DNA of 64,000 bases. Source: Polyangia bacterium. GTDB lineage: Bacteria > Myxococcota_A > Polyangia > Fen-1088. Below the pieces are notes generated by a model. The model did not search any database. It was not told where the DNA came from and was given only the letters and a program-made list of their open reading frames with translations. The DNA lies in the NCBI GenBank assembly GCA_036268875.1, contig DATATI010000080.1, forward strand, positions 62,001-126,000, written 5' to 3'. Positions within the stretch are counted from its first letter, which is position 1. The number at the start of each line of letters is the position of its first letter. Below are positions 4,955 through 56,250 of the stretch, in pieces. The position numbers were made by a program, and so were the translations under genes.

Positions 4955-5988
4955 GCCTGGCGGGCGACATCGAACTGGATCTCGGCGGCGACGGTGTCGA
5001 TGGCAGCACCGGGGATGGCCAGTCTCGCGCGAGCAGCCAACTCGAGCTCGACGAGACCAGGCGCGACGTGGCGGCGGCGGTCAGGGACGGTTTGCTGCGC
5101 CGGCGCAAGCGGCTGCCGGCGTGGCTTTTGTATGATCAGCAAGGCTCGGCTCTGTTCGAAGAGATCACGCTTTTGCCGGAGTACTACCTGACCCGAACCG
5201 AGCGCGCGATCCTCACCGACCACGCCGCCGAGATGATCCGCGCCGCCGGGCCGCCGCTGTCGGTGGTCGAGCTGGGCGCGGGATCAGCGTCGAAGACGCG
5301 GATCCTGTTGCAAGCGCTGCTGGCCCAACAACGCCACGGCCACTACACGCCGGTCGACGTCTCACCGAGCGCGCTCGGCTTCGCGCAGCACCAACTGCGC
5401 GATCTGCCGCGCCTGAGCGTTCGGCCGGTGGTGGCGCGCTATCCGGAGGAGTTGGGTTTTCTGCGCGGCCTGCCCGGCCGGCGGCTGGTGATTTTTTTGG
5501 GCTCGAACGTCGGCAATTACAACCCGCGTGCCGCCCGCACCCTGCTCGGCGCCGTGCGCCGCCAGTTGGCGCCCGGCGACGCGCTGTTGATGGGCACGGA
5601 CCTGCGCAAATCGGCGGCGGTGCTGCTACCGGCGTATGACGACGCCCGGGGCGTCACCGCGCGTTTCAACAAGAACGTCCTTGAACGCATCAACCGCGTG
5701 CTGGGCGCGCGCTTCGACAGCCATCGCTTTCGCCACGTGGTGCGCTGGAACGCCGAAGCCTCGCGCGTCGAGCTTTATCTGGAAAGTCTGGTCGCCCACA
5801 CTGTGCCGGTCGCCGCGCTGGACGTGGAAATTCCCTTCGCCGCCGGCGAGCGCATCCACACCGAATCCAGCCACAAGTTCACCCAGGCGGCGGTACGCGC
5901 GCTGCTGACGGCCGCCGGTTTCCGCTGGGAAGCCACCTGGCGCGATGCCCACCGTCGCTTCGCGGTCCATTTGGCCCGCGTGCGCTAG
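4951..5988 (+). CDS. egtD: L-histidine N-alpha-methyltransferase EgtD
   Basis: A 345-residue SAM-dependent enzyme that makes hercynine (trimethylhistidine), the first step of ergothioneine synthesis. It shows the EgtD/DUF2260 signatures: LPAWLLYDQQGSALFEEIT, PEYYLTRTE, SAM motif VVELGAGSASKTRILL, the PVDVSPSAL strand and LGSNVGNYNP. A roughly 35-residue acidic, Gly/Asp-rich N-terminal extension precedes the core and may be disordered. It is coupled to egtB by a 4-bp overlap, so the two catalytic steps form a minimal operon. The next gene is convergent. Confidence 0.93.
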   Translation: MSLAGDIELDLGGDGVDGSTGDGQSRASSQLELDETRRDVAAAVRDGLLRRRKRLPAWLLYDQQGSALFEEITLLPEYYLTRTERAILTDHAAEMIRAAGPPLSVVELGAGSASKTRILLQALLAQQRHGHYTPVDVSPSALGFAQHQLRDLPRLSVRPVVARYPEELGFLRGLPGRRLVIFLGSNVGNYNPRAARTLLGAVRRQLAPGDALLMGTDLRKSAAVLLPAYDDARGVTARFNKNVLERINRVLGARFDSHRFRHVVRWNAEASRVELYLESLVAHTVPVAALDVEIPFAAGERIHTESSHKFTQAAVRALLTAAGFRWEATWRDAHRRFAVHLARVR

Positions 5989-6011
5989 AGTTGATTTTGC
6001 GACGTGCGCCG

Positions 6012-7424
6012 CTACGGAATAACCGGCGATCCGACGTCGGCCTGGATGCACGACGAGGCGTCGAACAGCATGAACTCGACGGCTTTTTCTAGCGAGGTCA
6101 TCGGGCCGTTGTTGCACTCGGAGGGGAACGTCGGTTGCACCAGTTGGCCGGGGACCGCCGCCGTCGTCATCAACGGCGTCTGGTTGTTGCTGTCACTGGC
6201 CACGTGGAATTGGCTGAAGGCCACGCGCCCGCACTGTTGACTGTCAGGCACGCCCACCGGCGTGTTGAAGGTGAAGTTCTGGATCGAAGGCGCAGAGCCG
6301 TCGGTGTAGATCCAGCTTTGGGTGGGCGGAACGACGCCAGCGATGATGCTGACGCTCTCCAACGGGTCATGGATGGCAATCTGCCCCGACACCATACCCG
6401 TGACGCCGACCAGGGCCAGCCATTGCGAAAATGAAATGCCCTTGGGAAATTGTTGATCGATGCGGCCGACAAAGTCAGTCCCTGGCAAAAACCGCGTGCC
6501 CGACTTCCACACCACCGTGTTTTCGAAGGTGCCGCCCACGCCGTCGCGCAGCCACGAATCGCTCCAGTCGGTGAGAAAGATCCGACCGCCCTTGTTCGTA
6601 TAGTCGAGCAAGTTCTTTTGATACGCCGGGTTCTTCTGCCCGGCGCTGTCGCACGGCAGTAGCACGATGTCGTAACGGGCCAGCGTGGCCGGATCGCCCA
6701 CCAGCCGATCGCCGTTCGGCGTGGCGATGCCCAGGTGGTGGCCGCGATACGTCCACATGTTCACGCGCCCGGCATCGCCCGGCAACGTGAACTCGGCTTC
6801 GTCGATGCCGATCTTGCGCAGCGTGCAGTCGAAGGGATCCCACTGACCGGTGGCGATGGCGATGGCCGGGATGTCACCTTCGGTTTGATTGCGGGGCATG
6901 CGAGTCAGCTCGGTGGGCAGCGCGGTGTCGGTACAGGCGGTCACTTCGGGGATCACCACCTGTCGCCGCCAGCGACCGATCTGCACCACCAGCGGCACTT
7001 GCCGCCCAGGCGAAAGGCCGGTGAGCTTGAACGTGCCGTCCGGTCCGGTCACCGCGGTCGCCTGGGGCGCGCCCGAGACCGTTCCGCAACGATCGCAGGC
7101 GACGCCGGGGGAAAACGGCGCTACCGCGGTGGTCGGCACGTAGACCAGAGCGTTGTATAGAGGATCGGGGCGGCCGAAACGCGGCGGCGTGGGCGCCACC
7201 ACCGTGCCGCTGACGCTGGTGGTACCGCCGCCCGGGCAGGCGCTGAAAGTCGGTTGCGCCGAGCCCTCCATCCCCTTGCCAGCGGAAACCCCCGAAGGCA
7301 GGTCGGCCACCGTGTCCACCTGGGTAGTGCAAGCCGTCACCAGCAAACTGCCAGTTAGCAAGGCCAAAGGTCGGACGTTCCAGCCGGCACTGGAACGAGC
7401 CGCCGCGCTCGCCACCAGACCCAT
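6012..7424 (-). CDS. Lipoprotein with carboxypeptidase-regulatory-like domain
   Basis: A 470-residue secreted lipoprotein. The N-terminus has a hydrophobic stretch ending in a lipobox (LLVTAC, Cys32). Residues about 70-170 look like a CarboxypepD_reg/Ig-like domain (SGTVVAPTPPRFGRPDPLYN, then VTGPDGTFKLTGLSPGRQVP). The C-terminal 300 residues contain NLLDYTNKGGRIFLTDWSD, reminiscent of a class-I glutaminase-like or ThuA-like fold that follows a cell-surface cue, but no catalytic residue is clear. Cys-rich segments (VACDRCG, TACTDTA) suggest disulfides or metal. Homologues of this layout occur in myxobacteria; function unknown. Its start is divergent from the gene at 7510. Confidence 0.75.
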   Translation of the reverse strand: MGLVASAAARSSAGWNVRPLALLTGSLLVTACTTQVDTVADLPSGVSAGKGMEGSAQPTFSACPGGGTTSVSGTVVAPTPPRFGRPDPLYNALVYVPTTAVAPFSPGVACDRCGTVSGAPQATAVTGPDGTFKLTGLSPGRQVPLVVQIGRWRRQVVIPEVTACTDTALPTELTRMPRNQTEGDIPAIAIATGQWDPFDCTLRKIGIDEAEFTLPGDAGRVNMWTYRGHHLGIATPNGDRLVGDPATLARYDIVLLPCDSAGQKNPAYQKNLLDYTNKGGRIFLTDWSDSWLRDGVGGTFENTVVWKSGTRFLPGTDFVGRIDQQFPKGISFSQWLALVGVTGMVSGQIAIHDPLESVSIIAGVVPPTQSWIYTDGSAPSIQNFTFNTPVGVPDSQQCGRVAFSQFHVASDSNNQTPLMTTAAVPGQLVQPTFPSECNNGPMTSLEKAVEFMLFDASSCIQADVGSPVIP

Positions 7425-7509
7425 GACTTTATGGAACTACCATAGATCGGGCTTTTCTGCCGGCGTTTCTTCTGGCTCGGCCAAACCAAATCCCTGTAGG
7501 TTTTTGCTC

Positions 7510-8604
7510 ATGGGTTTTGGTCTGCTGGCCGGCGCATGGGCGTTGGTCGCGATGCTGCAGACGGCGCCCGAACCCGCCGTCGATCTGGGGGCGCCCGCGA
7601 ACCCCATTCGCGTCGTGGTGCGCATCGCCGACGAGGCCGATCAAAGGATCGTCGTCCGCCTGCGCGGCCACGCCAGCGACCTGGCCATCACCTTCGTCAC
7701 CACCGACGATCGAGCGCGTCCGGCCGACCTGGCCGAGCAGATCGCCGGCGCCGACGCGCTGGCGAGGCGCGAACAGGCCGACGCCGTGGTCTGGTTTTCG
7801 CATGGGCGTTGCGGGCACGCGGCGCCGGCCAGGCAGATCGACGGCTTGATCGTCCACATCGCCCAGCCGAAAATCCGCAGCGTCCTGGTGCGGGCGGTCG
7901 GTCATCTCTCCTGCGACCGACCGCCTGCGGCCAGCCATGCAGTCGAAGACTCGGCGGCCTTCGAAGCGGCGGCCATCGTGGTGCGCGCCGCGCTGGTGGC
8001 GGTGGCGGCCGGTGGGGCCATCGGCGTGGTGACGCCGCCGCCACCGACGGCGCCGGCCGCTCCATCCGGCCCGCAACCAGCCGTGACGGTCGGCTGGCTG
8101 TGGACGCTGGACGGCCTGACGCCGTACGGGCAGCAAGGCCTGCAAGCGGTGTTGGGCTTCGGTGGCGATCGATTCGTTCTCGAGATGGGTCTATTGGCCA
8201 CGGTGCCGGCGCAAGTGACCGACGATTTTGCCACCGTGTCGTTGTCGCGGGCGGCGCTGACGCTGGGGGGCGCCATTCGGCAGCCGCTCGGTGATCATTT
8301 CGTGATCGGCGGGGCGGTGCACGCCGGCGCGGCCTTGCAGATGCGCACCACCACCCCGCGAATGGCCGGCGTGTCGGCCTACCCGGCCAGCCGACTCGCG
8401 TCAGTGGTGGTGTCGCCGGAAGGGCGTTTTGGCGTCATCATTCCCCGCGTGCGTGGTTTGACCGTCGGGGTGGCGCTGGCCGCCGACTATATTCCCCACA
8501 TTCCGCTGCTTCGCTACACGCGCGACATGATGACCGTAAACCAGCGACGGCCGTGGGTGGTGCAGCCACGCGCGTCGCTGAATATCCAGTTGTGCCTGCC
8601 GTGA
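7510..8604 (+). CDS. Predicted outer-membrane beta-barrel-like protein in an ECF sigma operon
   Basis: A 364-residue protein of no recognised family. It starts with a hydrophobic segment (residues 2-18), followed by a domain containing EQADAVVWFSHG and a hydrophobic stretch near 155-185. A Pro/Ala-rich linker then leads to a C-terminal 180 residues with alternating hydrophobic/polar strands rich in Gly and aromatics (VGWLWTLDGLTPYG ... QPRASLNIQLCLP), as in small outer-membrane barrels. ATG 7510 was preferred over an in-frame ATG at 7423 because the latter overlaps the divergent gene. It is followed 37 bp later by a sigma-factor gene and probably shares its operon. Confidence 0.62.
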   Translation: MGFGLLAGAWALVAMLQTAPEPAVDLGAPANPIRVVVRIADEADQRIVVRLRGHASDLAITFVTTDDRARPADLAEQIAGADALARREQADAVVWFSHGRCGHAAPARQIDGLIVHIAQPKIRSVLVRAVGHLSCDRPPAASHAVEDSAAFEAAAIVVRAALVAVAAGGAIGVVTPPPPTAPAAPSGPQPAVTVGWLWTLDGLTPYGQQGLQAVLGFGGDRFVLEMGLLATVPAQVTDDFATVSLSRAALTLGGAIRQPLGDHFVIGGAVHAGAALQMRTTTPRMAGVSAYPASRLASVVVSPEGRFGVIIPRVRGLTVGVALAADYIPHIPLLRYTRDMMTVNQRRPWVVQPRASLNIQLCLP

Positions 8605-8641
8605 CCCATTTCTTGGTAGGCCAAACTCTATCCCGTTGCCC

Positions 8642-9235
8642 ATGGACCGCCTGACCACCAAGACCGATGCGCGCAGCGCGGATCAGCTGGCCCGGCTGGC
8701 GACCGAGGCGCGTGCCGGCGACACCCGCGCGCTGGAACAGCTATTGCTGGCGCTGTTGCCGCGCACGCGGAATCTGGTGCGGTACCTGATCGGCGGCGAT
8801 CCCGACGTCGATGATGTGGCGCAGACCGCTCTGTGGGCCATCGCGCGCAAGCTGCACACCTTCGAGGGGCGCAGCGCGCTGACGGCGTGGACCGATCGCA
8901 TCGTGGCGCGCGCCGCCTTCGCCGAGATCAGGCGCCGCGCCAGCCGGCCGAAAGTGGTGGCGGAATCGCCGCTGGAAAGCGTGCCCACCACCGGCGCGGT
9001 GATCGCCGATTATCTGGCCCGGCGCTGGATGGTGCGGCTTTTGGATCAGCTTCCCACCGAACAACGAGATGTCGTCGTCCTGCACCATGTGATGGAGTTG
9101 ACAGTGCCCGAGGTGGCAGAAGAAACCGGCGCCGGCGAAGAGACCGTGCGCAGTCGTTTGCGTCTGGCCAAAGCGCGCCTGCGCGAACTGGGCGCCGCGG
9201 TCGGCGCCTCCGACGAGGATCGAATCGATGACTGA
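8642..9235 (+). CDS. RNA polymerase ECF-type sigma factor
   Basis: A 197-residue group-4 sigma-70 factor. Region 2 spans about residues 25-90 (RNLVRYLIGGDPDVDDVAQTA for core binding and -10 melting) and region 4 about 125-185 (LLDQLPTEQRDVVVLHH, then VPEVAEETGAGEETVRSRL as the -35-binding helix-turn-helix). ATG 8642 is taken as the start; a TTG two codons upstream is less likely. It overlaps the next gene by 8 bp. The downstream product has one membrane segment and may play the anti-sigma role, but it has no zinc-binding anti-sigma motif. Confidence 0.88.
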   Translation: MDRLTTKTDARSADQLARLATEARAGDTRALEQLLLALLPRTRNLVRYLIGGDPDVDDVAQTALWAIARKLHTFEGRSALTAWTDRIVARAAFAEIRRRASRPKVVAESPLESVPTTGAVIADYLARRWMVRLLDQLPTEQRDVVVLHHVMELTVPEVAEETGAGEETVRSRLRLAKARLRELGAAVGASDEDRIDD

Positions 9236-27486: not shown

Positions 27487-29163
27487 ATGGTGGACCTAGC
27501 CGCGCGGGAGATCTGCTGGCGTTGGACCGTCTCCTTGGTGATGGCCCTCGCGGTGGGGGCTGCCGCTTGCGGCCGGTCTCCCACGCTCGACGGGGGTGCC
27601 GGCGAGGAGCCTGGGGTCGACGCGCCGCCAAGCAACGCCGTCGACCCCGGGTGGTCGCCGCTGCGCCGGCTCGACAACCTCGAGTACGACCTCACGGTCC
27701 GCGACCTGCTGGGCGTCGACGCACGCGCCCGCCTCACTTTTCAACCCGACGAGACCGCCGGTGACTTTGGCTTCGCGGACTTCGCGGGCGTCCAGTCCTT
27801 CAGCGACTCCCGCTACGAACAGTACGCGAACACGGCCTGGAACCTCGCCGACGAAGTCTTCGCCGATCCGGCGCTGCGCGCGCGCATCATCACCTGCGCG
27901 CCGGCGGCGCCTGGAGACGAGGCGTGCACGCGGCAGATCGTCACGGCCTTCGGCCTGCGGGCCTGGCGGCGTCCGCTCGCGAGCGACGAGGTGGACGGCC
28001 TGGTCGCCCTCGCTGCTGGCGCGCTCGCCGACGGCGCGACGTTCGAGGACGCGATCGAGCGGGTCGTCGTCGCGCTGCTCTCGTCGGCGCCTTTCCTTTT
28101 CCACCTCGAATTCGATCCCGATCCGTCTTCCCCGAAGCCGCACCCGCTCGCGCCCTACGAGCTCGCATCGCGCCTGTCGTACCTGCTGTGGAGCTCGATG
28201 CCCGACGATCGTCTTTTCGGGCTGGCGGCCGACGGGACGCTCGCGCGCGACGAGGTCCTCCGTGCCGAGGTTGGCCGCATGATTGTCGATCCGCGCGCCG
28301 ACGGGTTCATCGCGGGCTTCGCCGGGCCATGGCTCGGCGACGACGACTTGGCCGAGCATCCGATCGATCCCAGCACCACGTCGATGTTCGACCCGGCATT
28401 GATAGTCGCCATGAGCCAGGAGCTGCGCCTCTACTTCGCCGAGTTCCTGCGAGGCAGGGCGAGCTTCGCGACGTTTCTCGATGCCGACGTCAACTTCGTC
28501 AACGCCCGCCTGGCCCGGCACTACGGCATGGATGCGACCGGCCTCGGCGACGCGCTCAGGCGAATTGTCGACACCGGCGACCAGCGGGCCGGCTTCCTCG
28601 GTCTCGGCGCGATGCTGACGGTGACGTCCGCGCGCGGGCGGTCCTCTCCGACCGAGCGCGGGAAGTGGATCCTGGAGCACCTCCTGTGCGTGAAGGTTCC
28701 GTTCGGCCCCCCCGACACGCCCGATAGCATCGGTGCGTTCGACAGCGAGCCGCTGCGCCAGCTCATCGCTTCGATCGATGGCCAGCCGGCGTGCGGCGCC
28801 TGCCACAGACCAATGGACTCGGTCGGCCAGGCGCTGGAAGGCTTCGACCAGATCGGCGCGTTCCGCACGCAGTACCCGGACGGCCGGCCCGTCGATACGC
28901 AGGCCGTGCTCCCCGATGGCACGCGCGTCGACAGCGAGCCGGCGCTCGCCGCCCACCTCGCCGACGATCCGAACTTCCTGCCTTGCGTGAGCCGCACCGC
29001 CTTGACCTACGCCCTCGGACGCGATCTCGGCGATCTCGATCGGCCGGCCCTGACGCGGATCCTCGACGGGTGGACGGCGGGAACGCCGACGCTGCGCGGG
29101 CTCCTCGAGGAGATCATCGTCAACGACGTCTTCCGCACCCGCCGCAGAGAGGGGGCGCCATGA
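27487..29163 (+). CDS. DUF1587/1595/1592/1588/1585 protein with single CxxCH (copy 1)
   Basis: A 558-residue lipoprotein-like protein (AVGAAAC near residue 27). Domain order as in planctomycete/myxobacterial PSD proteins: DUF1587 (LRRLDNLEYDLTVRDLLGVD), DUF1595 (RRPLASDEVDGLVALA), DUF1592 (ASRLSYLLWSSMPDDRLFGL ... FAGPWLG), DUF1588 (TSARGRSSPTERGKWILEHL) and DUF1585 near the end (LTYALGRDLGDLDRPALTRI). A c-type haem-like motif CGACH precedes the last domain. The stop overlaps the DUF1552 start by 4 bp (ATGA). Function unknown; the family is thought to act with its DUF1552 partner outside the cytoplasm. Codon use is CTC-rich. Confidence 0.85.
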   Translation: MVDLAAREICWRWTVSLVMALAVGAAACGRSPTLDGGAGEEPGVDAPPSNAVDPGWSPLRRLDNLEYDLTVRDLLGVDARARLTFQPDETAGDFGFADFAGVQSFSDSRYEQYANTAWNLADEVFADPALRARIITCAPAAPGDEACTRQIVTAFGLRAWRRPLASDEVDGLVALAAGALADGATFEDAIERVVVALLSSAPFLFHLEFDPDPSSPKPHPLAPYELASRLSYLLWSSMPDDRLFGLAADGTLARDEVLRAEVGRMIVDPRADGFIAGFAGPWLGDDDLAEHPIDPSTTSMFDPALIVAMSQELRLYFAEFLRGRASFATFLDADVNFVNARLARHYGMDATGLGDALRRIVDTGDQRAGFLGLGAMLTVTSARGRSSPTERGKWILEHLLCVKVPFGPPDTPDSIGAFDSEPLRQLIASIDGQPACGACHRPMDSVGQALEGFDQIGAFRTQYPDGRPVDTQAVLPDGTRVDSEPALAAHLADDPNFLPCVSRTALTYALGRDLGDLDRPALTRILDGWTAGTPTLRGLLEEIIVNDVFRTRRREGAP

Positions 29164-30548
29164 AGTCGTCGACGCGCCGGCATTTCCTCCGCGGCGCGGG
29201 CGTCGCGCTCGCGCTGCCGTGGCTCGAGTCGCTCGAGCCACGGCGGGCGCGCGGGCAGACGGCGACCCCGCGGCGGCGCTTCGTGCCGATCTACTTCCCG
29301 CTCGGCACCGCCTACCCGAACGAAATCGACTACTGGACGCCCAAGGGCATCGGCGCCGGGACCGCCTGGCAGCTGTCGCCCATGCTCGAGCCATTCGCCC
29401 CGATCAAAAGTCAGGTCGCCGTGCTGGCGCAGGTCGATCAGACCGCGTTCAAGGAGACGGTCGTCGATTTCGGCAACGGGTTGCTCACGGACGCGTTCCT
29501 CACCTGCACCGACCCGCGGTCACAGGTCACGATGAGCCTCCCCGAGCCGAACGGGATTTCGATCGACCAGCGCATCGCCAGCGCCCTCGGGGAAAGGTCA
29601 CTCCAGGTCGGCCTCTCGACGCTCAACTCGTCCTGCGACGGCGAGCCGTGCGACTATTCGCGCAGCATCTCTTGGGCGGGGCCGGGAGCGCCACTCGGCA
29701 AACTCGTCGACCCGCAGAGCGTCTTCGACAAGATCGTCTCGAGTGGCCCGCCCCTGGCCCCGGCGGCGAGCGCCGCGACCAAGCGCAAGAGCGTCCTCGA
29801 CTTTGTCGTCGGCAACGTGACGAGCCTCGAGGGCCGTCTCGGCCGCACGGACCGCACCCGCATGGACCAGTTCCTCACGTCGGTGCGCGACCTCGAGACG
29901 CGCGTCGCCGCCCTGGCGCTCCCGCCCGACTGCCGCGCCATCCCACGTCCGACCCTGTCGGCGAGCGTCGGCAACGTCCCCGCGAGCTATAACCGCGACG
30001 ACCATGCGAACGTCATGATCGATCTTACCGTCATGGCGCTGTCGTGCGACGCCGCGGGCGTCGTGAGCTTCATGCTCGATGATGCCCGGTCCGACTTCCC
30101 ATACAACTTCTTGCAGCGGCGGCACTTCACCGACGCGGGCTCGACGCCGGGCACGACGGCCGTCACGTTCAGCCCGCTCATTGCTTCCGCCAACAACGAC
30201 GGCGGCGACGGCACGGACCAGTGGGCGACGATCCACTGGTGGTACGCCTCGAAGGTGAGCCAGCTCTGCCAGAAGCTCGCGGCCGTCCCCGACGGCGGCG
30301 GCGCGAGCCTGCTCGACAACTCGATCGTCTGGTTCGGCAGCGGACAGCAGGGAGAAGGGTTCGCGACGAACCTACCGCTCCTGTACGTCGGCAGCGGGGG
30401 CGGCATCCTTCGCACCGACCGCGCCTTCGCTTTCAGCCCCAATCAGAGCCTCGCCAACGTCTATCTCACGTTTCTGCGATCGGTCTTTGGGCTCCCGGAT
30501 CCGACCTTCGGCGACAGCACGGGGACCATCCCGGAGCTCCTCGCCTGA
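29160..30548 (+). CDS. DUF1552 protein with Tat signal (copy 1)
   Basis: A 462-residue protein with a twin-arginine signal (STRRHFLRGAGVALALPWLE) and the DUF1552 fold: YFPLGTAYPNEIDYWTPKG, SLPEPNGISIDQRIASALG, GRTDRTRMDQFLTSVRDLE, then HWWYASKVSQLC and LLDNSIVWFGSGQQGEGF. The Tat signal implies export in a folded state, possibly with cofactor. Coupled to the DUF1592-type gene by a 4-bp overlap; the two always seem to travel as a pair. CTC-rich codon use as in its partner. Confidence 0.87.
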   Translation: MKSSTRRHFLRGAGVALALPWLESLEPRRARGQTATPRRRFVPIYFPLGTAYPNEIDYWTPKGIGAGTAWQLSPMLEPFAPIKSQVAVLAQVDQTAFKETVVDFGNGLLTDAFLTCTDPRSQVTMSLPEPNGISIDQRIASALGERSLQVGLSTLNSSCDGEPCDYSRSISWAGPGAPLGKLVDPQSVFDKIVSSGPPLAPAASAATKRKSVLDFVVGNVTSLEGRLGRTDRTRMDQFLTSVRDLETRVAALALPPDCRAIPRPTLSASVGNVPASYNRDDHANVMIDLTVMALSCDAAGVVSFMLDDARSDFPYNFLQRRHFTDAGSTPGTTAVTFSPLIASANNDGGDGTDQWATIHWWYASKVSQLCQKLAAVPDGGGASLLDNSIVWFGSGQQGEGFATNLPLLYVGSGGGILRTDRAFAFSPNQSLANVYLTFLRSVFGLPDPTFGDSTGTIPELLA

Positions 30549-49743: not shown

Positions 49744-51078
49744 TCACAGCCGCGGCGCCGGCCCCGGACAGTATTTCGCGCTCCCCAGGTCCGATGCGTT
49801 GCTGCCCGTCAACACGTTGTAGACCGTCAGCAGGATCTGGGCGTTCTGGATGGGCGCCGCCGTGTAGTCGAGGTAGCGGCCCATCTTGATGGCCCCACCG
49901 GCGCCGCCGGCGAGGACGAAGGGCGCCGGGCTGGCGAGGTGTGCGGATCCATTTCCGAGCTCGTTCCACCACAGGATGAGGGTGTTATCCAACATCGTCC
50001 CGCCGGCCGCGTCGGGATACTTATCCAGCGAGCTCATCACGTACGCCAGCTGCGTGCTGAACCACGTGTTGATCTCGGTCATCTCTTTCAGGGCATTGGC
50101 GTGCGCCAGATTGTGATGGGTGTTGGTGTGGCCGAGCCAGCTGAAGGTCTCGCCTCCGGAGCCCATCGCGATCCAACAGAAGCTGGCGACGCGCGTGATG
50201 TCGCAGGCCATCGCCAGCACCATCATATCCAGATTCACCTTGCTCCACGCCGGCAGGTTCGACCCCAGGACATTGAAGGAGTCCGCGGGTCGGGCGGGAA
50301 CCATGCACGCGACCTGTGGTTCCACCGCCGTCACTTGCTTCTCGATCTCACGGATCGACGTCATGTGCTGGTCCAGACGCGCCTTGTCGTCGGTGCCGAC
50401 GCGCGCCTTCATGGTTGTAAAGCGACCGGCCACCATGTCGAGAATGCTCTGCCGGCGTTTACGCAGGTTATCGGCGGCCATCGTGTTCTGCGGCGTGCCG
50501 GCTGGTGCCCCATTCATGAACAGATAGTCGAACAGCGCGGATGGCTTTCCGATCGTCGGCAAAAGCTCTGTGGCGCCGCGCCAAGAAGAAACGATCTGCA
50601 AGGGATCGCCGCCGTCACCGCTGGGGTTCACGCCGGTTTGCACGGATTTGATCTTGGTGGCGCCGCCGATCTTGTCGGCGACGAGTTGATCCAACGAAGG
50701 TCCACCGGGGCGCATGGTGCCGAAGCTCTGGGGATTCACGAACGGCACGCCGCTGATCATCGCGGCATGCGAACCTTGGTGCCCGCCATACGCCGGATCC
50801 TTGCCGGCGTCGTTTTTGACTCCGTTGAAGAGAACCAGTTTGCTCTGATAGGGCAACAGCGGTTGGTGAGCCGTATTGAGCGTGAAGTTCGTCTCTGTCC
50901 CCATGGGATACCAATAGGCCGGCATCTGGCCGTTGGCGGTGAACCACGAGATGAACCGCTTTGGAGCGGCGTCCGCGGCCCGGGCGCGGCTCGGGCGCAT
51001 TGCCTCGAGCAACGGCAGGCCGATGGCCACACGGCCCGCGCCTCGGATGACTGCCCGTCGCGATATCCTTTTGAACAT
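49744..51078 (-). CDS. DUF1552 protein with Tat signal (copy 2)
   Basis: A 444-residue protein with a twin-arginine signal (ISRRAVIRGAGRVAIGLPLL) and the DUF1552 landmarks: FISWFTANGQMPAYWYPMG, GPSLDQLVADKIGG, DKARLDQHMTSIREIEKQVT, FCWIAMGSGGETFSWLGHTN and MLDNTLILWWNELGNGSAHL. Its ATG (51078) overlaps the stop of the DUF1592-type gene by one base and is preceded by AAGGAGGA. The codon use is like the surrounding genome, unlike copy 1. Confidence 0.88.
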   Translation of the reverse strand: MFKRISRRAVIRGAGRVAIGLPLLEAMRPSRARAADAAPKRFISWFTANGQMPAYWYPMGTETNFTLNTAHQPLLPYQSKLVLFNGVKNDAGKDPAYGGHQGSHAAMISGVPFVNPQSFGTMRPGGPSLDQLVADKIGGATKIKSVQTGVNPSGDGGDPLQIVSSWRGATELLPTIGKPSALFDYLFMNGAPAGTPQNTMAADNLRKRRQSILDMVAGRFTTMKARVGTDDKARLDQHMTSIREIEKQVTAVEPQVACMVPARPADSFNVLGSNLPAWSKVNLDMMVLAMACDITRVASFCWIAMGSGGETFSWLGHTNTHHNLAHANALKEMTEINTWFSTQLAYVMSSLDKYPDAAGGTMLDNTLILWWNELGNGSAHLASPAPFVLAGGAGGAIKMGRYLDYTAAPIQNAQILLTVYNVLTGSNASDLGSAKYCPGPAPRL

Positions 51079-52808
51079 CACAGTCCTCCTTGGGGAACCT
51101 TGCGATACAAGAACGGCGCCGTCAGCGGAATGGCGCGCACCAACGCCAGCTGGCCTCCCTGTTTCAGGGCATCGTGCAGCTGGGTCACTGCGCACGTATC
51201 ACCGGTGGTTTTTCCAGAGTCGCGGCCGAAGGCGAAGCGGAACCACTGGGTGGCGGCGCACGACACGGCTTCGTCGCTGGTGGCCAGCTTGGCGCCCAGC
51301 TCGACCGGACCGTTGAAAGTGCCGGCGACGTCAGAGGCGATGACATTCCCCGAGGCGTCGACGGGCTGCCCATTGTCGATGGTCCGCCACGCGCCGGACG
51401 CGTCGAAGCCTTCGAAGCCAAACCCGATCTGATCCATCATCACGTGACAGGCGGCGCACGTCGGGTCCGTCACGTGGTTGATCATCGCTTGGCGCCGCGT
51501 TTGATTGGGTTGCGCCACCGGCGGCGTGATGTTGGCGTTGGGCGGCGGCGGCGGGAGCGTCTCGCACAGCAGCGCTTCGCGCACGAAGATGCCCCGCTTG
51601 GTGGGCGATGTGAGATTACGATTGGCGTTGGCGGCCAGCAAGCCGCCCGCGGTCAGGATACCGGACGCGGGACGCATTCCCAGTGCGGCCTGATCCACGC
51701 GCGCGAAAGTCGGGCTCTGGCCTTTGATGCCGTAGAACGTGCCGAGCGCGTCGTTCAGGAACGTGTAGGGCGCCGTGAACAGCCCGGCGACCTTGCCATC
51801 ACCTTGAAAGACGACGTCGTCGACCAGCGAGCGAACTTCCTGTTGCATGGCGGCCGCGACGGCCAGCGAAAACTTGGGAAACTCCATCGGGTCCTTTTCC
51901 AGCGAATTGATGGCGTCCAGCTGCAGCCACTGGTCGTGGAAACGCAGAACCATCTCGTGGGCCCGTGGTTGGCCTAACATGCGCGTCACCTGCGCCGAGA
52001 TGTCGGCCGGCGTCTGCAGCTTGCCCGCTTGCGCGGCGGCGAGCAGTACACCATCGGGACCGCTGTTCCACAGCAGGTAGGACAGACGGGTGGCCATGTC
52101 CCAACCATCGAGCGGGATCAGCGATTTCCCTGCGACGGGTGGGCTCAGCTCGAAGCGGTACAGGAACTCCGGCATTTGTAGCACCGCCGTGATCACCGCC
52201 TCGACACCCGAGTTGAAGTTGCCACCGGTGTCACGGCCGACTTGCCAGACGGACAGCAGCGCCGTCGTTTGATCGGCGTCGACGGGCCGCCGGAAGGCCT
52301 TGGTCGCGAACGACGAGATGAAGGTCTGGGCGCACGCCTGCTCGCCGACGGCGGCGGGATCGCACATCAGAACCTTGGACAGGCGATTGGCCACGGTATC
52401 GGCAGCGATCTTCTCGGCAGCGGACAGGTATTGACTGGCCAACTGAGGCGGCGTCTCTTGCGCGGCCGCGTTGTCCAGAAATGGGAAATTTTCCGTCGTC
52501 AGCTCGACGGCGAAGTCGAGATTGAGGCTGGATATGTCACCTAGAAGATCAGAGACCGTGTTCAGGTACTCCGCGTTCGTGAGGCGCCGCAGGGGGGTGG
52601 CGTCGACATCCGTGACGCTGTCGCTGCAGGTCAGGGGTGTGCTGACCGTGGGGCCGCTCTGTTGGCCGCCGCCGGGTTTGATGCCGCCGGGCTGCCCGGA
52701 AGGAGCAGCGTCGCCAATTTCCCCGCTGCAAGCGAGGGTCAATGAGAGACAGGCCGCCGCCACTGTTGTCGATCTCGACATGAATTTGAGGGGCCAACGA
52801 GAGACCAT
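51078..52808 (-). CDS. DUF1587/1595/1592/1588/1585 protein with single CxxCH (copy 2)
   Basis: A 576-residue lipoprotein (SLTLAC near residue 27) with the full domain series: DUF1587 ([19 protein letters not shown]), DUF1595 ([20 protein letters not shown]), DUF1592 ([20 protein letters not shown]), DUF1588 ([20 protein letters not shown]) and DUF1585 ([20 protein letters not shown]). A c-type haem-like motif CAACH lies between the last two. ATG 52808 has GGAGGTCACGT upstream, deciding against earlier in-frame starts. It is the first gene of a two-gene operon with DUF1552 copy 2. Confidence 0.88.
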
Positions 52809-52927
52809 ACGTGACCTCCTGACGATGAGCGACGGATTTGCGTGCACCACCGCTTCTTTGATCGGTGCGAATGAAAGGTTCCGCGACGGCGACCTATTAG
52901 TTCATCGTATTTTCGCTAATTCGCAAT

Positions 52928-52981: not shown

Positions 52982-53383
52982 TTATTTTTCTTGCGACGGC
53001 GCTGTCTTTGGAAACCAGAGGCCAGCTCTGGAAAGAATCTTGCGAACGGTTTCCTTGGCCAGATTGATGCCATGTTGTTCGGCCAGCCTCTGGCGCACCA
53101 GAGTGGGACCTAAGTCCTGGTAGAACTGGCGCGTCAGCGCAACGACCTGCGCCTCGATCTCGGGCGGGAGCCTTCGGTTTCCGACCCGGCCTCGCTTGCG
53201 TGAAACCAGTCCAGCGGCTCCTTCACGCTGGAAGGCCCCGCAAAGACGGGTGACCTGTCTGGCAGAGATCCCTAGCGATTGACCAGCCTGCACCCGCGTC
53301 AGGCGACGCTGAAAGACCAACTGGAGCACACGCAGCCGGTCAATCTCCTTGGCGCTCATGACGAGAGCGGCGGGCTCGGACAT
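52982..53383 (-). mobile_element. Truncated ISNCY-like transposase (N-terminal helix-turn-helix part)
   Basis: A frame of about 133 residues from ATG 53383 (another ATG at 53359): MSAKEIDRLRVLQLVFQRRL, GQSLGISARQVTRLCGAF, GLVSRKRGRVGNRRLPPEIE, and KETVRKILSRAGLWFPKT. This is the N-terminal DNA-binding half of ISNCY-family transposases. The catalytic (DDE) half is missing: the frame stops at 52982 in an A/T-rich stretch. It is therefore an inactive remnant. It sits upstream of, and in the same direction as, the DUF1592/DUF1552 operon, which has its own ribosome-binding site. Confidence 0.78.
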
Positions 53384-53420
53384 TTCTAAATTGCCCGAAT
53401 CGGATATCTGCAACTCGCTC
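53377..53420 (+). repeat. Direct repeat element, copy 2 of 3
   Basis: It begins CGGACATTTCTAAATTGCCC and continues GAATCGGATATCTGCAAC. It lies at the 5' end of the transposase remnant, so it may be the end sequence of that element. Confidence 0.65.
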
Positions 53421-53561
53421 CGGGATACGACCGAACCCCGCATTCTTGTGCCCTCGAGACATAAATGACCGCGAGGCGAAGATATGGGTCAGGAACTTTT
53501 TCGGGCCTGGTTTCCGCGCCCGCGACGCCGGGCTTCCAGCGTCAGCCAGTGCCATTGCCAG

Positions 53562-54608
53562 TCACGGCCGGCGAAACAGCAGGCCATACACCAGCTGCAC
53601 GGCGTCGCCCAGGTTCCACAACCAGGGCGCCGTCAGTCGCGGCTCTTTCACCATTGAAGCCATCCCGGGAAATTGCAGTTGCTTGAGCAACGTCGTCGGA
53701 TCCGGCCGCAAAGTGACTTTTCCTGCCGCGACGGCCGCGTCGATGGCGGCCTGCAGTTCCCTGGCGTCACGGCCAACCATCGTCGACAGGGCGGGGGCGT
53801 CTTTCGACGACAGGACATCGAAGGCCAGCACGCCGCGGCCACCCGGACGCGTGGTGCCCACCAAAGTCGCCAGATGAACCGCAATGATGGCGGCGTCCAG
53901 ACGTTCCCAGTTGAGCCGTGACATGATCCAGGCGCGCTGAAACGGAACGATTAGCTGGCTGAGCGAACCGGCCGACAGCACCGTGTCAAAGCCGCGCCCC
54001 AATCCGGCCATAATCGCCCGCGCCGAAGCGTGCGCCGTTCGGCCCAGCGCGGCGTCGTCGGGGAAGGACTCGCCCCACTCGTCGAGGCGGCTCATGAAGC
54101 CGGACAGATCCACGGGAGCGTGCGGAATCACCCGCTCGCGCACCGCCGCCGGCAAATCCTGACGCGCGCGTTCCAGCGCTTCGCTGTCCAGATCGACGAG
54201 GTGGATCTCGCGATAGGCGTCCGCGATCCGCGGCAGATCCAGATCGCTGCCATTTCCGGCGCCGAAGATGGCGATGTCACCGGCGGACGCGGCGCCCGGG
54301 ACCGGCGCGGATGCCGCCGCCAGCGTCAGCGCCATCACTTGCTCTCGGTGGTCCTGGTAGCGATGCCAGCTCCCTGCCAGCCGGCGGTTGACGCCGGCGA
54401 GGTATTGATGGGCCCGGGTTTCGCTGCTCTCGCGCGCGCCGCCATCGCCGCCGTGTTTGCTCGCCAGATGGCCAGCAAGGCAGGTCAACGAACAGGCCAC
54501 GAACGTTCCGCCGGTGCCTGGGCAGAGATCGCAGACGCGGCGCATCTGGGAAGCGCAGCCGCAGTTGGCGATCGGCACCTGCTGACCAGAGCCTTCCTTA
54601 CCTGCCAT
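53562..54608 (-). CDS. SAM-binding-like protein with N-terminal Cys/His cluster (paralogue 1)
   Basis: A 348-residue protein of no named family. Residues about 15-55 hold a Cys/His cluster (CGCASQMRRVCDLCPGTGGT, then CSLTCLAGHLASKHG) that looks like a zinc finger. After a helical segment comes a nucleotide/SAM-type fold: DIAIFGAGNGSDLDLPRIAD, EIHLVDLDSEALERARQDL, then HAPVDLSGFMSRLDEWGESF, and a C-terminal PWLWNLGDAVQLVYGLLFRR. It shares these blocks with the divergent gene at 54747, but that partner lacks the Cys/His part. ATG 54608 was chosen at the start of the Cys/His region. Function unknown. Confidence 0.72.
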   Translation of the reverse strand: MAGKEGSGQQVPIANCGCASQMRRVCDLCPGTGGTFVACSLTCLAGHLASKHGGDGGARESSETRAHQYLAGVNRRLAGSWHRYQDHREQVMALTLAAASAPVPGAASAGDIAIFGAGNGSDLDLPRIADAYREIHLVDLDSEALERARQDLPAAVRERVIPHAPVDLSGFMSRLDEWGESFPDDAALGRTAHASARAIMAGLGRGFDTVLSAGSLSQLIVPFQRAWIMSRLNWERLDAAIIAVHLATLVGTTRPGGRGVLAFDVLSSKDAPALSTMVGRDARELQAAIDAAVAAGKVTLRPDPTTLLKQLQFPGMASMVKEPRLTAPWLWNLGDAVQLVYGLLFRRP

Positions 54609-54746
54609 GATGACTGTCGACACTGTAAGCACCAATGGACGAAGCAAATCAAGCGCGACAATCTTGATGGACGGCCGGGGCGACATGCCCACAGTGCAGA
54701 AATACCTCTCTTTGCCAATTCCGCCGCGGTAGCGTTGCCAAGGCGC
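54609..54746. promoter_or_regulatory. 138-bp divergent intergenic region
   Basis: It separates the starts of the two paralogous SAM-binding-like genes and must contain both promoters, so coordinated control is likely. No operator palindrome or consensus promoter was certain by eye. Confidence 0.5.
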
Positions 54747-55616
54747 ATGCCCGACAAAAAGCCGACCCTCTTCGAACGCGCGCAAAGGGCCGAGCAAAAC
54801 GGGAACCGGGAGACGCGCGATCTTTGGGACCTCTTCCGGAGCCACCGGCAGCGCGTGACCGCCGAGATTCTTGCGCTCGCCCCCGGCGACAACGACGCGT
54901 CGGGTGGCCGGCTTTGCTTGCTGGGCGCGGGGAACGCCAACGATCTGGATCTCCAGGCGCTGGCGGCGCGCTTCGACGAGATTCATCTGGTGGACATCGA
55001 TCCCGGCGCCCTGTCGCGCGCCACCGGGCGGCAGAGCCCGGCGGTGAGAGCCAGGCTGCGCAGCCACGCCCCGGTCGATTTGTCGGGGCTCTACCACCAG
55101 CTAGAACGGAGGTCCCGGCTTCCGTCTACCGACGAGATGGTGGCCGCGGGAACGGCCGCGGTGATGCGGCAACTTCCGTCGGAGTTCGACGTGGTGGCGT
55201 CCTGTTGCGTGCTGAGCCAGATGTCCTGGGCCCTCGAGCGACTGGCGTCGACGGATGGAACGCGGGAGTCGACGCTCGAAAAAGCGCTGCTCCGCATCCA
55301 CCTGCGGGCCATCCTTCGCATGATCAGGCCAACAGGCGCCGCATTGCTGGTCTCGGATCTCACCTCATCGCAGTTCTATCCGTCGCTCGGTGAGCTCTCG
55401 CCGGGCGAGGACCTGCGCGCCTTGACACAAAGGCTGGCCGCGCAGCGCGTGGCCTTCACCGTGTGCAACCCTGAACTGGTTCGGCAGACCCTTCGCCACG
55501 ACGCCGAGCTGGCCGAGACCTGCCTGCCGCCAACGATGGGCGATCCTTGGTTGTGGACAGCGCCGAAGGCGCTCACGTATCTGGTCTACCCGTTCGTGCT
55601 GCGCCGAAAGAGTTGA
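54747..55616 (+). CDS. SAM-binding-like protein (paralogue 2)
   Basis: A 289-residue protein with LCLLGAGNANDLDLQALAAR (glycine-rich loop), EIHLVDIDPGALSRATGRQ (acidic end of strand 2), SHAPVDLSGLYHQLERRSR, FDVVASCCVLSQMSWALERL, and a C-terminal PWLWTAPKALTYLVYPFVLR. Blocks align in order with the divergent neighbour. It is all one methyltransferase-like domain with a helical N-terminus (RDLWDLFRSHRQRVTAEILA). No catalytic residue could be assigned and the substrate is unknown. Confidence 0.75.
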   Translation: MPDKKPTLFERAQRAEQNGNRETRDLWDLFRSHRQRVTAEILALAPGDNDASGGRLCLLGAGNANDLDLQALAARFDEIHLVDIDPGALSRATGRQSPAVRARLRSHAPVDLSGLYHQLERRSRLPSTDEMVAAGTAAVMRQLPSEFDVVASCCVLSQMSWALERLASTDGTRESTLEKALLRIHLRAILRMIRPTGAALLVSDLTSSQFYPSLGELSPGEDLRALTQRLAAQRVAFTVCNPELVRQTLRHDAELAETCLPPTMGDPWLWTAPKALTYLVYPFVLRRKS

Positions 55617-55878
55617 AGCAAATAGAAACGGCTGCTCCGGCCGACGAGGCGGACATTTCTACTTGGCCAATCCGGACAGTTGCACAAAGCCAAATGAATA
55701 CTTGTCGCCGTTGCGGATGTTGCGGCATTTTCTTTCCCAATAAGCGACTCGAGACATTAGATAATTTTGTATCGGCACCACACGTCTCTTATCGATCGGT
55801 TACTGATTGCCTGCCGAAATACATGTTTGGCGTCTGCCTCCTGGGACCCGATCCGCACGCGTGATGAAAGGACAGCCA
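55617..55878. other. Intergenic region with repeat copy 3
   Basis: It holds the third direct repeat copy (55649-55692). A short frame from 55693 with MNTCRRCGCCGIFF was seen, but it is only about 57 residues and begins inside A/T-rich sequence next to the repeat, so it is not called. The promoter for the next gene should lie here; AAAGGA precedes ATG 55879. Confidence 0.5.
55649..55692 (+). repeat. Direct repeat element, copy 3 of 3
   Basis: It begins CGGACATTTCTACTTGGCCA and continues ATCCGGACAGTTGCACAAAG. Same orientation as copies 1 and 2, about 2.2 kb beyond copy 2. No transposase sequence is attached to it. Confidence 0.65.
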
Positions 55879-56250
55879 ATGCGCAACGGTCCGCGTTGCC
55901 AGATGCCAGGATTTTCGTTCTACGGACTTGCTTCCGTGCTGTTGTTTTGCGCGTGCGAGGTCTCACTACCCGCCAGCCAGCCGGGCAACAATTCGCCCAT
56001 CGACAGCTTGGAGCCGCTGGCCAAGGCGGGTGTCCCGCTCCTGCACGTCTTTGCCCACGCCGACACCGCGCTGCCGTGGATGGAGAACACCGGCATCGTT
56101 GCCGATCGCTATCCCAAGCTCGGCGGTTCAATCATGCTCATCCGAAAGGTCGGCTTTGATCACCATCCGCACGGCCTTGAACAGGATCCCACCCCGGTGG
56201 TGAATTTCGTTTTGACGAACGCGCTGCGAGCCAACGGTCTTTCGCCGTGA
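55879..56250 (+). CDS. Short lipoprotein carrying only the C-terminal part of an alpha/beta hydrolase
   Basis: A 123-residue protein with lipobox LLFCAC (Cys26) and then SLEPLAKAGVPLLHVFAHAD, TALPWMENTGIVADRY, and GFDHHPHGLEQDPTPVVNFV. The last segments are the acid and catalytic-His regions of a secreted alpha/beta hydrolase; the Ser-bearing first two thirds of the domain is absent. A signal peptide is nevertheless in frame. Either an internal deletion joined the two ends or a short non-enzymatic form was kept. Likely non-catalytic. Confidence 0.65.
   Translation: MRNGPRCQMPGFSFYGLASVLLFCACEVSLPASQPGNNSPIDSLEPLAKAGVPLLHVFAHADTALPWMENTGIVADRYPKLGGSIMLIRKVGFDHHPHGLEQDPTPVVNFVLTNALRANGLSP

Follow-up and report, generated by a model that had tools for sequence, protein, structure and literature searches.

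When two homologous genes stand head to head, do their products work as a pair, or are they separate enzymes that happen to be neighbours? The question arises from genes A and B of the window, a 64,000-nucleotide stretch of Polyangia DNA (Table 1). An earlier note had described them as divergent paralogues encoding SAM-binding-like proteins and kept side by side; it suggested that one member reads a target and the other does the chemistry, or that the two form a heterodimer, with balanced expression as in a two-component effector system. The analysis below indicates that A and B are a true pair of homologous genes that was wrongly taken for a system.

Table 1. Features of the window around genes A and B
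Feature	Position	Strand	Description and basis
HXXSHH (DUF1552) protein, partner of the PSD gene	49744..51195	-	Pfam, E 6e-67
PSD3/PSD5/PSD4/PSCyt3/PSD2 protein (DUF1587/1595/1592/1588/1585), neighbour of A	51078..52850	-	Pfam, all five domains above cut-off
Gene A, predicted class I SAM-dependent methyltransferase with N-terminal Cys/His zinc-finger-like domain	53562..54608	-	348 aa, read 54608 to 53562; translation, AF2, Foldseek, clade with the G003 and G952 copies
Cys/His domain of A, residues 17-54	54447..54560	-	Alignments of three A-type sequences
Divergent intergenic region between A and B	54609..54746	.	138 bp between start codons; sequence
Gene B, predicted class I SAM-dependent methyltransferase	54747..55616	+	289 aa, read 54747 to 55616; translation, AF2, Foldseek, VIA-align

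That the two are divergent, homologous neighbours is borne out by their coordinates and by a BLASTP alignment showing 34% identity over 286 columns (E 5e-36), in which the blocks quoted in the note follow one another in identical order in both proteins. The short gap between the genes was also correctly described; the shared promoter proposed to lie within it gained no support, as a scan of 53300-55900, blind to other promoter types, returned no sigma-70-type match.

The idea that both proteins bind SAM is well supported by predicted fold and motifs. The AF2 model of B (pLDDT 91.3) matches the class I methyltransferase fold by Foldseek (E 2e-8) and by VIA-align (Z 16.2, 183 residues aligned, rmsd 2.9), and the Foldseek matches of the A model (pLDDT 82.7, with low confidence across the Cys/His finger) are methyltransferases as well. 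Dozens of families tie with B at Z 15-16; such a generic match cannot name a substrate, and a substrate assignment from fold was rejected on this ground. The family has a glycine-rich loop after strand 1 and an acidic residue after strand 2, and GAG and D83 (B numbering) are invariant across all aligned members. Nineteen columns are invariant over 10 aligned sequences, among them a His-Arg in the N-terminal helix, GAG, the Asp residues of IHLVD-x-D, the Gln of the LSQ block and both Trp of PWxW, and all 19 are present in A as well as in B. Since each protein retains every one of these residues, the notion of a non-catalytic reader working beside a catalyst finds no support in sequence.

In their Rossmann-like fold, glycine-rich loop and acidic residue after strand 2, A and B resemble the class I SAM-dependent methyltransferases of the Pfam Methyltransf_12/25 group. 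Unlike that group, they fall under every Pfam and NCBIfam cut-off (Methyltransf_12, PF08242, gave 15.6 and 17.4 bits against a gathering cut-off of 30 bits), and they possess blocks of their own, HR, SxCxLSQ and PWxW. A search of solved structures by sequence returned no match for B. The family is uncatalogued in the sense that it is missing from the curated libraries searched; it is otherwise ordinary-looking.

The one clear difference between the proteins, also noticed earlier, is the zinc-finger-like N-terminus of A. Its cluster, CGC..CDLC..CSLTC...H....H, is absent from B and kept in two orthologues, and the three A-type sequences share approximately the pattern C-x-[CH]-x7-C-x2-C-x9-[CY]-x3-C-x3-H-x4-H. 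The conserved positions (numbered to within about one residue) are Cys17, Cys/His19, Cys26 or 27, Cys29 or 30, Cys/Tyr40, Cys44, His48 and His53, one ligand position being Tyr in the G003 copy. When the 318 genomes of the class were searched for the finger, the three A-type genes were found along with one weak match in a frame with stops, and nothing else. The finger had no match in Pfam at E 10 and none among solved-structure sequences.

Comparison with known fingers offers a lead at most. The CxxC...CSxxC...H part of the finger profile aligns with HIT/MYND fingers, a weak match (hhalign probability 64%, E 6e-5) from one small comparison of small alignments, for which the HIT and MYND query sequences were checked against solved-structure sequences. 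Judged from these alignments, the domain may weakly resemble the second half of HIT/MYND zinc fingers (as in ZNHIT3 and SMYD2), whose Cys/His pattern is cross-braced with eight ligands: it has a CxxC and then C-x3-C-x3-H as in the second half of HIT, but differs in its longer spacer between Cys pairs and in using His as last ligand. No bacterial HIT/MYND methyltransferase was found in the literature searched. A small N-terminal Cys/His domain ahead of a class I methyltransferase is also reminiscent of the RlmA-type 23S rRNA methyltransferases, which carry an N-terminal zinc ribbon, though with a Cys/His spacing different from that of the A finger.

Relatives of A and B are rare and scattered. 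Family matches occur in 13 of 318 Polyangia-like (class) genomes and in 8 of the 379 genomes of the phylum sample, and the window's own genome holds two further full copies and one remote copy on other contigs. Outside the phylum, members were found in one Rhodothermaceae MAG, one Paenibacillus cellulosilyticus replicon and one IMG/VR contig. The Paenibacillus gene sits among transposase/resolvase-like ORFs, and the IMG/VR member (4992-5912 of its contig) follows ORFs that resemble, by eye, phage tail and M23-type endopeptidase genes and is possibly a phage-carried accessory methyltransferase; both contexts fit a mobile accessory gene. A phage family as such was rejected, as PHROGs gave no match for A or B and phage records none for A, and a defence system was rejected because PADLOC matches were weak only. 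Homologues at 5681-7159, 7388-8725 and 7246-8457 of three other loci (L012, L102 and L103, respectively) form a remote branch with an extra N-terminal region and strong tree support.

The tree of the family bears directly on the supposed pair. Gene A joins the G003 and G952 copies with support of 100/100, and the Cys/His domain is confined to these three; B falls with copies of its own genome on contigs C21 and C88 and with relatives (support 82/85). Membership in separate clades implies that the genes diverged long ago and were brought together later, not that one arose by recent duplication of the other. The earlier note had called for a search for repeated divergent pairs and held that homologues always occurring singly would speak against its proposal; among the loci examined, two copies stand together only in this window, every other locus holding one, so that, this locus apart, the outcome goes against the proposal. 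An obligate pair or a recent tandem duplicate was rejected on locus context and tree. A heterodimer or two-part effector, with A recognising a target and B catalysing, would agree with the head-to-head arrangement, the short common intergenic region and the confinement of the finger to A, but it is very improbable given that A retains the SAM-binding and invariant residues, that its two close relatives have no second copy nearby (the far side of the G003 copy lies beyond the end of its contig, and that genome has one family match only), and that the closest relatives of B are single.

Taken together, the homology of A and B, their fold and invariant columns, the separate clades, the single copy per locus elsewhere, the sporadic distribution and the mobile-type contexts argue that the genes probably encode class I SAM-dependent methyltransferases that act independently and come from different old subfamilies of a single sporadic, uncatalogued family. 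The sub-threshold Pfam methyltransferase matches and the generic fold match count against this reading, as do the SxCxLSQ block and the terminal PWxW, for which it does not account. Each enzyme would bind SAM through the glycine-rich loop after strand 1, an Asp after strand 2 and an acidic residue after strand 3, and would methylate a substrate of its own, with a small molecule or a peptide as the likeliest candidate. The finger may serve to bring A to one specific partner or substrate. That the genes are neighbours would then be a matter of chance, or of their recent arrival side by side in an accessory region where a PSD/HXXSHH module is also found.

That module raises a further question, for PSD and HXXSHH genes (Pfam-confirmed) are the only widely recurring neighbours of family members, and a functional tie to them is possible. 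A PSD/DUF1592 plus HXXSHH/DUF1552 module lies within 5.2 kb of 8 of 15 family loci, where 0.9 is expected from module density, and of 5 of 12 (0.65 expected) without the window's genome; at a cut-off of 2 kb the latter count drops to 1 of 12 (P 0.32, not significant), and the choice of PSD and the distance cut-offs were set after the data had been seen. In the window's genome all three family loci are within 2.3 kb of a module, compared with 1 of 46 other Methyltransf_25 genes and 6 of 59 sigma factors, the two families that served as controls for a shared accessory-gene habitat. In G360 a PSD gene, an HXXSHH gene and the methyltransferase gene follow in that order on the same strand, and two of the three remote homologues directly adjoin modules. 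The methyltransferase-linked PSD proteins are scattered across the PSD tree, so duplication of one segment bearing both genes does not explain the association and was rejected.

These observations would suit an accessory of the modules, making or modifying something that the exported haem-type proteins act on, a reading that is tentative and rather doubtful. Set against it, no module is found within 5.2 kb of 7 of the 15 loci (including G366, three G952/G957 loci and the Rhodothermaceae copy, some contigs ending early), the order, strand and distance of modules vary, and a family member stands at only 3 of the approximately 34 module loci of the window's genome. Modules also have sigma factors near them rather often, so a shared accessory-gene habitat may explain the proximity. 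Less likely still is the fuller proposal that this uncatalogued methyltransferase family, one branch of which bears the finger, has been repeatedly recruited beside these modules, there to supply a methylated substrate or modify a module component. Independent action of A and B remains the preferred reading, and the proximity, which is new here, is a lead.

In most of these genomes PSD/PSCyt and DUF1552 proteins number in the tens, and a study of freshwater Verrucomicrobia stated that nothing was known of what its PSCyt-encoding genes do (PMC5615132). A recurrent enzymatic neighbour, if true, would provide a handle on these proteins; otherwise, what has been found is one more small methyltransferase family. 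The firm part of the result is ordinary, and the points worth keeping are the finger-bearing branch and the proximity to PSD/HXXSHH modules.

Other neighbours were also noted. Kinases are common in these genomes, and hybrid histidine kinases are encoded close to the A-type genes of G003 (L015, 5944-7917) and G952 (L096, 9196-11361). The idea that a histidine kinase partners the A-type gene was set aside, since these kinases carry different sensor domains and kinases recur at PSD loci that lack a family member. In the window, an ORF at 52982-53443 (minus strand), between the PSD gene and A, encodes HTH_32/HTH_28 helix-turn-helix domains and is perhaps a transposase remnant, and a second PSD4 plus HXXSHH module is located at 28147-30116 on the plus strand (C80:90147-92116).
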